Positions 53,794 to 62,086 of a DNA stretch of 62,086 nt are shown one piece after another. The stretch is from NCBI GenBank assembly GCA_015061615.1, contig SUWE01000010.1, positions 1-62,086 of the forward strand, in the 5' to 3' direction. The notes beneath the pieces were generated by a model. The model searched no databases. It worked only from the letters and a program-made list of their open reading frames with translations, and had not been told where the DNA came from. The translations under genes and the position numbers were made by a program. The stretch comes from Lentisphaerota bacterium (GTDB lineage Bacteria; Verrucomicrobiota; Lentisphaeria; Victivallales; Victivallaceae). How positions within the stretch are numbered: the stretch's first letter is position 1; each line of letters begins with the position of its first letter.

Positions 53794-53821
53794 AATATAG
53801 CGGAAAATTTGCAAAATGCAA
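53794..53821 (-). promoter_or_regulatory. asd promoter candidate
   Basis: On the minus strand TTGCAT (53816-53821) and TATATT (53794-53799) with a 16-bp spacer overlap the ligA promoter on the other strand. Confidence 0.4.
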
Positions 53822-53837
53822 TCATGTGTATTATATT
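53809..53837 (+). promoter_or_regulatory. ligA promoter candidate
   Basis: TTGCAA (53809-53814) and TATATT (53832-53837), 17 bp apart, face ligA, whose ATG is at 53885. Confidence 0.5.
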
Positions 53838-53884
53838 TTATGAAATGTTTTTGCAATTTTGTTTTTCTGAAACCGGGTAAAAGT

Positions 53885-55774
53885 ATGGACTTTATCAATT
53901 TCGACCTTGCCGCAATGGATGCCGCCGCCGTTGCTGAACTGCTGGCATATCACGACAAATGCTACTGGGAACTCAATGAACCGCAGATTTCCGACGTGCT
54001 TTACGATCAGATCGTCGAACGGCTCCGGAAACTGGATCCGGATAATGAACTGCTCCATAAAATCCACACTCCGTCAGTCCTTTCCGACGGCAAAGTACAC
54101 CACAAAAAAGCGATGCTCTCACTCGATAAAGCATATTCGCTGGAATCCCTTCTTGAGTGGGCGGGCAAATACGCCAGAACTCCGGATGAACTCCTGCTGG
54201 TCGAACCGAAATACGACGGAATATCCGCAAATTTTGACGGCAAAATCCTTTCCACCCGCGGCGACGGGAAAACGGGGGAGGATATTTCCGCCAAACTGCC
54301 GCTTATCGAACTTGAAGCACCGGGTTACACCGGCAAAGTTGACCGTCCGGTGCGCGGTGAGATCGTCATCAGGGATGATGATTTTGTCAACATCTATTCG
54401 CGCATCCGCAAAAAAGATGGCGGCATATACAAAAACTCCCGCAATGCCGTCGCCGGAATAATGACGCTCAAGGATATCGTTCCGATGCTTACTCAGGGGG
54501 CAAAACTGACACTGGTCGACTACAACCTCATTTCAAAACCGGTGAAATTCAGTGAATTGCAGAGCAAATGGGAAGAGCTTAAATCTGCCTTCGCACGGCT
54601 TCCCTATCCGATGGACGGAATCGTTCTCAAATTTGCCGATACCGCATTCAGAGAATCTCTCGGAGCGACCGCCCACCACCCCAGAGGTGAGATCGCCTAC
54701 AAATTCACCAACTCCAGCGCCCAGACCACCTTGCTCGGTGTCCAGTGGAGCTTCGGTAAAAACTGTCTCACTCCGGTGGCGGAACTTGCCCCTGTGGAGC
54801 TTTCGGGAATCACCATCAAACGTGCCACGCTCCACAATATCCAGAATATCATCGACATGGAACTGATGATCGGTGACACGGTCACGGTCGAACGCGCCGG
54901 TGACGTTATACCCTATATCGCCGCAAGCATCCCCGGAAAAACGCGGGAAACCCCCTTTATTGAGGAGTGTCCGGCGTGCAAAAGCAAACTTATCCGCAAA
55001 GGTCCGGAAATCTGCTGCCCCAATGCAGAGTGTCCCGGCAGTCAGCTTCAGCTGCTTGCCGCCGCAGTCAAAAATCTCGGAATAGAACGGCTCGGTGAAC
55101 CGACGGTGGCAAAGATCATGAAAAAGTTCCACGTCCGCCATCTCAAAGAGCTTTTCGACCTGAACAAAGGGGATTTCCTTCTGCTTGAAGGATTTGCTTC
55201 AAAGAGTGCGGAAAATCTTTACAACGAAATACAAAAGGCGCGTGAAGTCGATGATTTCCAGCTGCTTGCCGCTTTGAATATCCCCGGTATCGGTGCCAAT
55301 ACCGCCAAACTTATTCTGGAAAAGTTCCCCATCGACTCCCTCAGAAGCGCCACAGTGGACTCTCTGGCGGAAATTCAGGGAATCGGCCCGGAGCGGGCAA
55401 CGGCGGTGGTAACGGCGCTTGCGGAACGTGCGGAGGAACTTGATGAACTGCTCAGTGCCGTGACCATCAGAAAAGCACAGAACAACTCCGCAGAATTGCC
55501 CGGAATATGTTTCACCGGAAAAATGCCCGAAAAGCGTTCATTTTACGAAAAACTTGCATCGGAACACGGGTACACCCCGATGGATTCAGTCACCGCCAAA
55601 CTTGCCGTTCTGGTGGCGGCGGATATCAACGACAACTCGTCAAAACTGAAAAATGCCCGCAAACTCGGAGTCAAAATCGTATCTCTGGATGAGTTCCTCG
55701 CTTCATTGGAAAATGAACCGGAGAAAAATGCCGGTCATGAGTTCGGTGACCTTCCGCTGTTCGGCGATCTGTAA
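53885..55774 (+). CDS. ligA: NAD-dependent DNA ligase (divergent LigA)
   Basis: The start at 53885 (MDFINFDLAAMD) is preferred over an upstream ATG because the family's Ia domain begins here; the ribosome site is weak. The nucleotidyl Lys lies in LLVEPKYDGISANF (KYDG rather than the usual KIDG, about residue 109). Motif IV PMDGIVLKF, OB-fold RATLHNIQNIIDMELMIGDTVTVERAGDVIPYI, Cys4 zinc site CPACKSKL...CCPNAECPG, HhH repeats and a BRCT end (GICFTGKMPEKRSFYEKL) follow. 629 aa is short for LigA (about 670), from several small losses. Confidence 0.92.
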   Translation: MDFINFDLAAMDAAAVAELLAYHDKCYWELNEPQISDVLYDQIVERLRKLDPDNELLHKIHTPSVLSDGKVHHKKAMLSLDKAYSLESLLEWAGKYARTPDELLLVEPKYDGISANFDGKILSTRGDGKTGEDISAKLPLIELEAPGYTGKVDRPVRGEIVIRDDDFVNIYSRIRKKDGGIYKNSRNAVAGIMTLKDIVPMLTQGAKLTLVDYNLISKPVKFSELQSKWEELKSAFARLPYPMDGIVLKFADTAFRESLGATAHHPRGEIAYKFTNSSAQTTLLGVQWSFGKNCLTPVAELAPVELSGITIKRATLHNIQNIIDMELMIGDTVTVERAGDVIPYIAASIPGKTRETPFIEECPACKSKLIRKGPEICCPNAECPGSQLQLLAAAVKNLGIERLGEPTVAKIMKKFHVRHLKELFDLNKGDFLLLEGFASKSAENLYNEIQKAREVDDFQLLAALNIPGIGANTAKLILEKFPIDSLRSATVDSLAEIQGIGPERATAVVTALAERAEELDELLSAVTIRKAQNNSAELPGICFTGKMPEKRSFYEKLASEHGYTPMDSVTAKLAVLVAADINDNSSKLKNARKLGVKIVSLDEFLASLENEPEKNAGHEFGDLPLFGDL

Positions 55775-55939
55775 GCCGTGCGGCTTGCGGGCAGGCATGG
55801 GGTCGGTATACCCGCTGTGGCGCACTGCCGTTATGGTGCGCCGCTTGTACGGATAGGTACGGATAAGTACGGATAGGTACGGATAAGTATTGGTGCGGCG
55901 CAAAAAGCAGTCTGCGCGGGTTGTTTGCAGACTGCCCCC
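55775..55939. repeat. Modular repeat unit 1 (left module L1, core A)
   Basis: Left module 55775-55844 (CGGTATACCCG type), core 55845-55889 of four 10-bp repeats (GTACGGATAG/GTACGGATAA), right module 55890-55939. The left module ends TGCGCCGC and the right holds GCGGCGCA, so the core is enclosed by an 8-bp inverted repeat; a 9-bp hairpin GCAGTCTGC/GCAGACTGC follows. Confidence 0.9.
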
Positions 55940-56094
55940 GTGCGGCTTGCGGGCTGCACCGGTTTTAGATACCACCTGCGGCGCGCGGATTATAGGGTGC
56001 GCCGCTGTCGGACTTGTCTGACTTGTCGGACTTGTCTGACAAAATTGGTGCGGCGCAAAAAGCAGTCTGAGCGGGGTGTTTGCAGACTGCCCCC
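55940..56094. repeat. Modular repeat unit 2 (left module L2, core B)
   Basis: Left module 55940-56005 (TAGATACC type), core 56006-56044 of 9-bp TTGTCTGAC/TTGTCGGAC repeats ending CAAAA, right module 56045-56094 with one G-for-C change relative to unit 1. The enclosing inverted repeat is kept. Confidence 0.9.
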
Positions 56095-56261
56095 GTGCGG
56101 CTTGCGGGCTGCACCGGTTTTAGATACCGTCTGCGGCTTGCGGATTATAGGGTGCGCCGCTGACTGTGAAAACTGAGAATACTAAGAACACTAAGAATAC
56201 TGGTTTTTTATTTGGGGCGGCGCAAAAAGTAGTCTGCGCGGGGTGTTTGCAGACTGCCCCC
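56095..56261. repeat. Modular repeat unit 3 (left module L2, core C)
   Basis: Left module 56095-56160 nearly identical to unit 2, core 56161-56211 with 9-bp repeats GAATACTAA/GAACACTAA flanked by TGTGAAAACTGA and CTGGTTTTTTA, right module 56212-56261. Confidence 0.9.
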
Positions 56262-56410
56262 GTGCGGCTTGCGGGCAGGCATGGGTTCGGTATACCCGCT
56301 GTGGCGCGCGGGCTTTATGGTGCGCCGCTGTCTGACTTGTCTGACTTGTCTGACTTGTCTGACAAAATTGGTGCGGCGCAAAAAGCAGTCTGCGCGGGTT
56401 GTTGGCAGAC
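56262..56410. repeat. Modular repeat unit 4 (left module L1, core B)
   Basis: Left module 56262-56328 of the unit 1 kind, core 56329-56367 with four pure 9-bp TTGTCTGAC-type repeats, right module 56368-56410 shortened to a 6-bp hairpin GTCTGC/GCAGAC. The array ends here, 144 bp before the regulator gene. Confidence 0.9.
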
Positions 56411-56495
56411 AAAAACACATTCAACGCTGTACCATACGGCACTTCTGTATTCTATGTGTGTATAAAAAAACACCGTTTTTTGACTGTCTGAAATC

Positions 56496-56524
56496 TTGAA
56501 AAAATCTCATAACTCATGTATCTT
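56496..56524 (+). promoter_or_regulatory. Promoter of the regulator-pseudopilin-enzyme operon
   Basis: TTGAAA (56496-56501) and TATCTT (56519-56524) with a 17-bp spacer precede the regulator gene. Confidence 0.55.
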
Positions 56525-56533
56525 TTCTCAGCT

Positions 56534-56547
56534 AACTTCGGGAAGTT
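56534..56547. promoter_or_regulatory. Palindromic operator candidate
   Basis: AACTTC-GG-GAAGTT is a perfect 14-bp palindrome just after the presumed transcription start and over the ribosome-site region, well placed for repression by the regulator encoded 7 bp downstream. Confidence 0.5.
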
Positions 56548-56553
56548 GATATT

Positions 56554-57636
56554 ATGAGTCATGCAAAGTTCACAGCCGTCGGTGCGGCAGTCGAAAAAGA
56601 TATCATAAACGGAATTTATACCGACCGTCTGCCGACAGTCAAAACTCTGGCGGAAAAATACGGTGTTGCAATACAGACGATGCACAACGCCCTCAAACCG
56701 CTGGTGGCAAGAGGAGTGATAAGAGCTACGCGCCACGGGAGTTTCGTCAACCGTTCAGTAAAACCGTTCCGCCATAAGGTCGGCGTTTTCGGCGACTTCA
56801 CCCAACTGGTTCCTACTCAGGAACCCCGGATGAAATTCCTGTCGCTTGCCGCCGCTGCCGACGGCGATGAACTGGTCTTTCTGGGTCCGCTCAGGGAGAC
56901 TCTTGCTCAAAATCCGGAGTTTTACAAAAAACCGGAACTTGACGGTTATATCTTCCTTTACAGCGATTTTGATCTGGCACTTTCAGCCGAACTCAGACGC
57001 CGCAAGATACCGGCGCTTATATGCAATCATCTGCCGGAATCTCTGGGGCTTGACTCCATAGACTACAATCATCAGCAGTGGCTCGATGAAGCAGTCGGCG
57101 CCCTTGTCGCCTGCGGCTGCCGCAGAATAGGTACACTCTTTTCACGCTCACTCAACAATTTGATCAGCTGGGAAGCGGAAATGTCCACCGCCGCCGAACT
57201 CAAGCGGGAGTATCAACTCAAACCGTACCGCCTGATCGACTCCCTTCCGGCAAAAAGTGACGAACAGCTGAAAAAAATCTTCGATCTGCTGATTTCCGAA
57301 ACTGTATTTCCCGATGCGCTGATCATGGCAGGGCATATCATGCACAAACTCGTGCTGAAACTGATAGATGCCGGAAAAGTTCCGGGCAGGGATTATTTGC
57401 TGGTGATAAGAGATGACCAGTCAACACTTCTGCCTGAAGGCAATATATTTGCCTGTGTGAAATATGATGAAGAAAAAAATGCGCGCGCCATCTGGAACCG
57501 TTTCCGTGAGCTGCGCAATGACCCCGTACAGCCGCCCAAAGCACTGCTGTCGGATATGAGCAAAAGTTTTATAAAACTCAAAAACCCATATTCAAAAAAT
57601 ATAACCCGTCTTGACAGAAAGGAAAACAAAAAATGA
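56554..57636 (+). CDS. GntR-type regulator with LacI-like effector domain (360 aa)
   Basis: A winged helix (about 8-65: [52 protein letters not shown]) is joined to a periplasmic-binding-protein-like sugar sensor (about 75-330: [30 protein letters not shown]). Such chimeras are common in Lentisphaerota next to glycan-degrading loci. It overlaps the pseudopilin gene by 4 bp (ATGA), so it is translated with it and probably controls this operon by a sugar signal. Confidence 0.85.
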
Positions 57637-61780: not shown

Positions 61781-61936
61781 CTGCTTGCGGGCAGGCATGG
61801 GTTCGGGATACCCGCTGTGGCGCACTGTCGTTAGGATGCGCCGCTACTGTGATTACTGAGAATACTAAGAACACTAAGAATACTGGTTTTTAAGGGGGCG
61901 GCGCTGTTTGCAGTCTGCGCGGGTTGTTTGCAAACA
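61781..61936. repeat. Modular repeat unit 5 (left module L1, core C, altered hairpin)
   Basis: Left module 61781-61844 (unit 1/4 type), core about 61845-61891 sharing GAATACTAAGAACACTAA with unit 3, then a right part whose second hairpin uses new arms (TGTTTGCA with TGCAAACA) instead of GCAGTCTGC/GCAGACTGC. It lies 14 bp after the enzyme stop and before the IS. Confidence 0.85.
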
Positions 61937-61964
61937 CTCACAAGCCCCCCCCCAGTATTTGATA

Positions 61965-62086
61965 TGCACCCCAAAAGTTGGACACAACTAAAGGAGTGCA
62001 TATTTTATGAAAAAAGAAAAAGCAAAACCTCAAGAGTACAGTGCAAATTTTAAATTACGTGTTATATTAGATGTGTTGAATAACGA
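61965..62086 (+). mobile_element. Left end of an IS3-family insertion sequence (partial)
   Basis: TGCACCCCAAAAGTTGGACA near 61965 is a typical IS3/IS150-group terminal inverted repeat. An orfA with an AAGGAG ribosome site starts 42 bp inside. The element continues past the window. Confidence 0.75.
62007..62086 (+). CDS. IS3-family transposase orfA, N-terminal fragment
   Basis: The visible 26 residues begin MKKEKAKPQEYSANFKLRVI, matching the start of the orfA helix-turn-helix (YSxxFKLxVIxxVL) that binds the IS ends. AAGGAG is at 61991-61996. The gene runs off the end of the window, so whether it is intact cannot be judged. Confidence 0.75.
   Translation, partial: MKKEKAKPQEYSANFKLRVILDVLNN

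Follow-up and report, generated by a model that had tools for sequence, protein, structure and literature searches.

Among described systems, the REP/RAYT partnership comes closest to the repeats examined here. As described in PMC2817692 and PMC3733652, the gene is flanked by short repeats, further copies are dispersed and form modular mosaics, the repeat type follows the gene, and the presence of the gene is correlated with the number of repeats. Like REP/RAYT, BIMEs and REPINs, the repeats reported below adjoin a gene, in this case one for a TIGR04258 protein, are of types that follow that gene, and are dispersed as modular mosaics. However, unlike a RAYT, the TIGR04258 protein is a four-helix bundle with no match to the Y1 transposase and, unlike REPs, the repeats are seen by inspection to be 9–10 bp tandem cores in 8 bp stems, not GTAG- or CGTC-tagged palindromes of 20–40 bp. 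The explanation that the units are classical REP/BIME elements moved by a Y1 (RAYT) transposase, with which dispersed intergenic palindromes, modular mosaics and several types per genome would agree, was already disfavoured. The source assembly (85 % complete) has no match to Y1_Tnp (PF01797), though 5 of 14 control genomes do, and on this ground REP/RAYT proper was rejected; as the cores are also tandem arrays and not tagged palindromes, we regard this explanation as scarcely credible.

Neisserial intergenic mosaic elements (NIMEs) also stand between genes as arrays whose units are exchangeable and share an inverted repeat on their flanks, but they are not known to have tandem-repeat cores or a protein family linked to them. 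The array studied here, which lies after ligA, differs from NIMEs in having both. On the protein side, TIGR04258 proteins resemble those of 23S rRNA intervening sequences (PF05635/TIGR02436) in matching TIGR02436 (23.9–29.9 bits in four proteins, cut-off 24); in a separate scan of four proteins, matches to PF05635 fall below the gathering score. The TIGR04258 partner protein is presumably also akin to Avd of the diversity-generating retroelements. It differs from both in the TIGR04258 suffix and, in two of the four proteins of the latter scan, in a Top1-type zinc ribbon. A diversity-generating retroelement was rejected as the identity of the locus, the source assembly having no match to reverse transcriptase PF00078, which was found in 3 of 14 control genomes.

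The window, by which we mean the whole 62,086 nt stretch of DNA that was analysed, comes from an uncultured bacterium whose group is placed in Verrucomicrobiota in GTDB. Its nearest ligA relatives are in records named Lentisphaerae or Lentisphaeria bacterium, several of them from sheep colon. The original prediction, made from the sequence alone, was that four units with a shared frame and three different cores, of which A has a 10 bp period and both B and C a 9 bp period, follow directly after ligA. This was borne out over 55776-56410, with the cores recovered by TRF, as were the order of the left modules (L1, L2, L2, L1) and the make-up of a distant fifth unit (Table 1). Unit starts in the array are 155–167 bp apart, and each unit runs from a left module starting CCGTGCGGCTTGCGGGC through the stem TGCGCCGC, the core and the stem GCGGCGCA to a GCAGTCTG...CAGACTGC type hairpin, the end of which is missing from unit 4. 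The cores lie in the loop of this 8 bp GC-rich stem. Core B has one free base within its motif and free linkers between motifs. When the units were folded as single-stranded DNA and compared with shuffles, the two B units (z -4.3 and -4.4) and the C unit (z -2.9) proved the more stable, and the A unit did not (z 0.25). A known structured RNA was rejected because nothing in 55600-56600 reached an Rfam gathering score, the only hit being SorX (15.9 bits; gathering score 46.6). At 61960-62086, a sequence identified by eye as an IS3-like element starts within what is left of a C-type array and continues past the end of the window.

Table 1. Positions in the window of ligA, the repeat units and their parts
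Feature	Position	Strand	Description
ligA (NAD-dependent DNA ligase)	53816..55774	+	directly 5' of array; NCBIfam dnlj E 1e-117, 394 bits, below model cut-off of 444
Unit 1	55776..55937	+	L1 (55776-55845) + core A, then right stem and GCAGTCTGC...GCAGACTGC hairpin
Unit 2	55938..56092	+	L2 + core B
Unit 3	56093..56259	+	L2 + core C
Unit 4	56260..56410	+	L1 + core B
Unit 5	about 61781..61959	+	L1 + core C (TRF 61845-61885); IS3-like end next, at about 61960
Core A, (GTACGGATAR)n	55847..55889	+	10 bp, 4.3 copies, TRF
Core B of unit 2, GTCNGAC plus 2 bp	56006..56040	+	9 bp, 3.9 copies, TRF
Core C, (GAATACTAA)n	56168..56201	+	9 bp, 3.8 copies, TRF
Core B of unit 4, (GTCTGACTT)n	56329..56363	+	9 bp, 3.9 copies, TRF
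8-bp stem around core A	55837-55844 TGCGCCGC / 55895-55902 GCGGCGCA	.	same build in units 2-4

The repeats of the array occur far beyond chance in the source genome, where a search of the 2.71 Mb assembly with a 156 bp piece of the array gave 60 matches, several of them at contig ends. Outside the array, the best match has E 5e-33. Besides L1 and L2, this genome contains a third left module, L3. Pairings were tabulated for 30 classified units from fetched own-genome loci, a partial sample of the genome selected on the basis of matches, and cores with no recognized left module were excluded. L1 was paired with core A in two units, B in four and C in eight, L2 with A in none, B in three and C in six, and L3 with A in one, B in six and C in none (chi-square p = 0.05, with small cells). 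The independent assortment of left modules and cores that had been proposed therefore stands for L1 and L2, which both combine with B and with C, and does not extend to L3, which is found mostly with B. In the six L3+B units the stem pair is GCGGCAC/GTGCCGC, replacing GCGCCGC/GCGGCGC, so that both sides are changed. In the source genome, a stem of at least 7 bp surrounds the array in 5 of 8 cases for core A, 10 of 15 for core B and 10 of 21 for core C, compared to 2–5 % when the letters of the flanks were shuffled and 25–43 % when flanks were re-paired between units. Outside this genome, arrays have weak stems or none (in the genus, stems surround 2 of 23 arrays of core A, 5 of 23 of core C and 11 of 28 of core B), and around B arrays they were found in 9 of 44 cases in the phylum and 6 of 80 in viral contigs, the latter being the chance level. 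The mosaics in L009, L014, L023 and other loci are edged by short hairpins with GAA or GCA triloops (GCGCGAAGCGC, GCTTGCGAAGCAAGC, AAGTGCGCAGCACTT), which make up a further class of repeat.

The cores are independent of the hairpin frame. A 274 bp query from the array found a match in 18 of 60 genomes, its own included, and the match takes in core B in 16 of the other 17, with G003 having core B plus frame bases and G028 frame bases alone. Three copies of GTCNGAC at 9 bp spacing are present in 71 of 387 genomes of the phylum, with up to 828 per genome, and the reversed pattern at the same spacing is in four genomes. The highest counts are in family f10 (828 pattern matches in G252, 337 in G373, 281 in G211 and 128 in G236). 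Core A was found in 11 of the 60 genomes, the source genome counted, where it lies on six contigs, that of the window among them, besides the contig that carries the TIGR04258 gene. Exact core C arrays are in 5 of 60 (G000, G007, G016, G024 and G032, again with the source genome counted). Inverted pairs, 28–198 bp apart, are frequent among the A and C arrays, and the inner part of such pairs is common to loci of one species, as seen for the C pairs in G016 and the A pairs in G031. At one locus (L325, 1576-3075; G008:C47), two opposed core-A arrays of approximately seven units each lie 1.35 kb apart around frames that by eye look like phage replication genes, and no TIGR04258 gene was found there. 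Though recombination or cassette exchange had been suggested from the array alone and mosaic exchange is supported, cassette exchange as the key to these units is not supported: each core is a 9–10 bp tandem-repeat type that is also found outside this frame and is linked to TIGR04258 genes.

That link emerged from the open reading frames that cross B arrays, which repeatedly encode one protein, NCBIfam TIGR04258, in which a suffix at the C-terminus follows a four-helix bundle. The source assembly has a single copy of the gene (C4:33861, locus L225), and its product, which includes the N-terminal four-helix bundle, scores 48.1 bits against a curated cut-off of 40 (and 29.9 bits for TIGR02436). 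Pfam and NCBIfam scans of sampled TIGR04258 proteins named no nuclease or transposase domain, and a profile of 14 of them matched no PDB sequence at E <= 0.01. A known defence system was rejected for three of the proteins, which had no PADLOC match at E <= 0.01. The family is present in 206 of the 387 phylum genomes, and in 60 of the 71 with B arrays compared to 146 of the 316 without them (p 2e-9, with arrays inside the gene itself counted and the relatedness of the genomes uncorrected); the remaining 11 B-array genomes have no TIGR04258. Copies that appear to be truncated or split over two frames (L203, L220, L239, L241, L242, L252, L261, L263, L273 and L284) suggest frequent decay. In L202 (G269:C289) a frame that by eye is Cas1-like shares the locus with a TIGR04258 gene. 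Searches of the open-licence literature returned no paper on TIGR04258, alone or combined with intervening sequences, on 'four helix bundle suffix' or on 16–18 base pieces of the array. A looser combination led, among other work, to a paper on diversity-generating retroelements, and the papers retrieved for GTCNGAC concern E. coli and Pseudomonas. The initial view that no element of such a build has been described agrees with these searches.

Arrays of each core type adjoin TIGR04258 genes. In the source genome, an GTACGGATGA array, approximately six copies of core A, stops about 20 bp before the conserved part of the gene, and an inverted TCCGTACACA array, also of the core A type, lies 89 bp after it. 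In the sister species G016, G024, G032 and G029, C-type arrays are found on one or both sides of the gene, at a distance of 210–240 bp in G016 and less in the other three. B arrays occupy the linker that joins the bundle to the suffix, or lie a short way upstream of the gene or at its 3' end. Among ten genomes with A arrays that were scanned for TIGR04258, three (G000, G011 and G031) have the gene together with A-like arrays, three (G008, G015 and G032) have a gene of the 10-bp branch with other 10-bp units, two (G024 and G029) have full copies of the C branch only, and in two (G005 and G013) no TIGR04258 gene was found. The B and C arrays of the source genome have no cognate TIGR04258 gene in its 85 % complete assembly. 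In viral contigs, none of 69 stretches with a B array is near a TIGR04258 gene, many of these arrays being open Ser-Asp frames, and the sole TIGR04258 gene found there has three GTCNGAC copies approximately 60 bp upstream, which were seen by eye, are unevenly spaced and are not a TRF hit.

At first look, B arrays alone were present in 3 of the 30 best-scoring TIGR04258 loci and in none of 195 pieces of ligA loci. Array units vary from one TIGR04258 gene to another. The test for any 9- or 10-bp array was set up after the source genome's own locus had been seen. For the census, 60 further TIGR04258 loci were fetched and the gene was located in 89 distinct loci using a purpose-built profile; the loci are the top of a score-ordered list plus the genus of the window and not a random draw. 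An array of period 9, 10, 18 or 20 (TRF score >=30) was found in the gene or within 250 bp of it in 66 of the 89 loci, upstream in 38, downstream in 38 and on both sides in 25. Over the 100 bp that precede the conserved part there are 3.0 arrays per kb, and over the 100 bp that follow it 3.8; each bin beyond 400 bp has 0–0.6 per kb. The density around ligA is 0.20 per kb in 692 kb, so chance alone would yield some of the 66. Within 150 bp of the gene, 9- or 10-bp arrays were found at 44, 36, 30 and 11 of 86 TIGR04258 genes at TRF scores of at least 30, 36, 40 and 50, respectively, compared to 3, 1, 0 and 0 of 63 ligA controls (63 of 80 ligA loci served as flank controls) and 6, 2, 0 and 0 of 75 sites lying 600–760 bp off in the TIGR04258 loci themselves. 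Hence, 9–10 bp arrays beside or inside TIGR04258 genes are far above the controls, and the flanking of a partner gene known from REP/RAYT is matched by analogy. Of 57 TRF rows near these genes (period 6–16, score >=36), 52 have period 9 and three period 10. The two arrays around the source genome's own gene are inverted, but among the 25 two-sided genes the orientation is inverted in nine, direct in ten, tied in one and unrelated in five. Inverted flanks, a mark of REP/RAYT, thus have no support here as a general rule, and neither do simple terminal inverted repeats.

Tandem arrays grow by slippage, and an entirely passive origin, with slippage making 9-bp arrays in Ser-Asp linkers and intergenic hairpin loops, homologous recombination shuffling them and the TIGR04258 link incidental, has to be weighed against these counts. 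Many B arrays may indeed be coding, to judge from their reading frames, as 17 of 36 fetched from the phylum and 40 of 84 from viral contigs fall within Ser-Asp frames that stay open for at least 200 aa, and 9 is the commonest period in ligA loci too (40 of 118 TRF rows). However, only 4 of 17 B arrays in the source genome are in such frames and the other 13 lie outside them, 10-bp units cannot hold one coding frame, and arrays of score >=40 are present at 30 of 86 TIGR04258 flanks but at none of the 63 ligA controls or the 75 sites farther off. A passive origin appears quite improbable.

A tree of the 89 different full-length TIGR04258 proteins from 113 loci was built by a quick method, and columns filled in fewer than 60 % of rows were dropped, so that repeats in the linker should not drive it. 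Of its 86 inner branches, 25 are well supported and 32 are open. Five repeat classes label 45 of the genes, a further 23 have some other unit and 21 have no repeat. On the tree the 45 labelled genes require five changes of class, where the minimum possible is four; 2000 shuffles averaged 24.7 changes, and the lowest count among them was 18. Since the classes were drawn after the units had been seen, a class-free Mantel test of unit similarity against tree distance was added, and for 57 genes it gave a rho of -0.22, below all 1000 shuffles. Hence, the repeat type tracks the TIGR04258 protein tree, though joint inheritance of the gene and its flank could explain part of this signal.

The same tracking would be consistent with regulation, in which each TIGR04258 protein binds the arrays and thereby controls its own gene and a regulon, and the dispersed arrays are operators or transcription-end elements with nothing mobile about them. 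Arrays do lie at gene starts and ends, and the near-palindromic GTCNGAC resembles an array of operator half-sites. Arrays within coding frames, inverted pairs around inner segments that are common to several loci, and the multi-module mosaics of the source genome are harder to reconcile with operators, and we consider this explanation rather unlikely.

Alternatively, the arrays may have come first, as preferred landing or recombination sites at which TIGR04258 genes, like some insertion sequences, collect. An insertion sequence ends within C-type arrays at 11 of 12 of its own-genome ends and directly after one at the twelfth, and PMC1525189 deals with insertion sequences in REPs. Two observations weigh on the other side: the B-branch array sits within the linker of the gene, and different TIGR04258 branches sit in different repeat types (the five changes on the tree), so that each branch would need its own taste in targets. 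We rate the probability of this order of events as low, on a par with regulation. The insertion sequence itself was seen only as two ends near contig ends (in L013, L015, L021, L026, L031 and L032 and in L014, L016, L019, L023, L028 and L035), in 34 own-genome sources that had all been fetched for their repeats. It runs into core-C type units at six of six ends on one side and at five of six on the other, the remaining end running into sequence after a C array. It looks like an element that targets core-C type repeats.

We favour a reading in which A, B and C belong to families of tandem repeats that are linked to proteins and lie in hairpin frames specific to the lineage, standing to TIGR04258 proteins as REPs do to RAYTs but with an unrelated protein, and assign it a probability of roughly 0.55; recognition and mobilization are the inferred parts of it. 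The array after ligA would be a local pile-up of dispersed intergenic mosaic repeats, and its three cores would represent three 9–10 bp repeat families, each tied to different TIGR04258 branches, core A to the branch of the source genome's own gene, core C to a branch found in the sister species, and core B to branches that often have the repeat inside the gene. A TIGR04258 protein would recognize its cognate repeat and, through that recognition, arrays would be spread or maintained in trans, as has been proposed for RAYTs and REPs. The hairpin frames would be lineage-specific carriers, with recombination between copies exchanging their cores. Movement of the repeats was not observed, the neighbours of the source genome's TIGR04258 gene and of the array not being syntenic in relatives. 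None of the three genes downstream of ligA was found there in 80 ligA loci, the ten of these loci examined hold no A, B or C array, and in the 29 other pyrD loci folC was not found after pyrD within the flank that was fetched. L096 has additional sequence between asd and ligA, which was judged by eye not to be one of the repeats of the array.

The findings suggest a partnership, not previously described, between a protein and its own repeats. More tentatively, and with less confidence than in protein-linked repeats as such, these may be selfish systems found throughout the phylum. Each TIGR04258 protein would recognize its own 9–10 bp repeat and spread or expand it across the genome, its own gene and coding linkers included; new specificities would arise as a protein branch and its repeat change together, and the remains of several such systems would persist in genomes like the source as hairpin mosaics with combinable parts.

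Slippage is the usual explanation for short tandem repeats in bacteria. In many genomes of this phylum, however, each branch of a protein family of unknown function is linked to a short repeat of its own. If this link is functional, it would provide a function for a four-helix-bundle family and a second, unrelated counterpart of the REP-RAYT partnership, together with natural protein-repeat pairs for direct tests of recognition.
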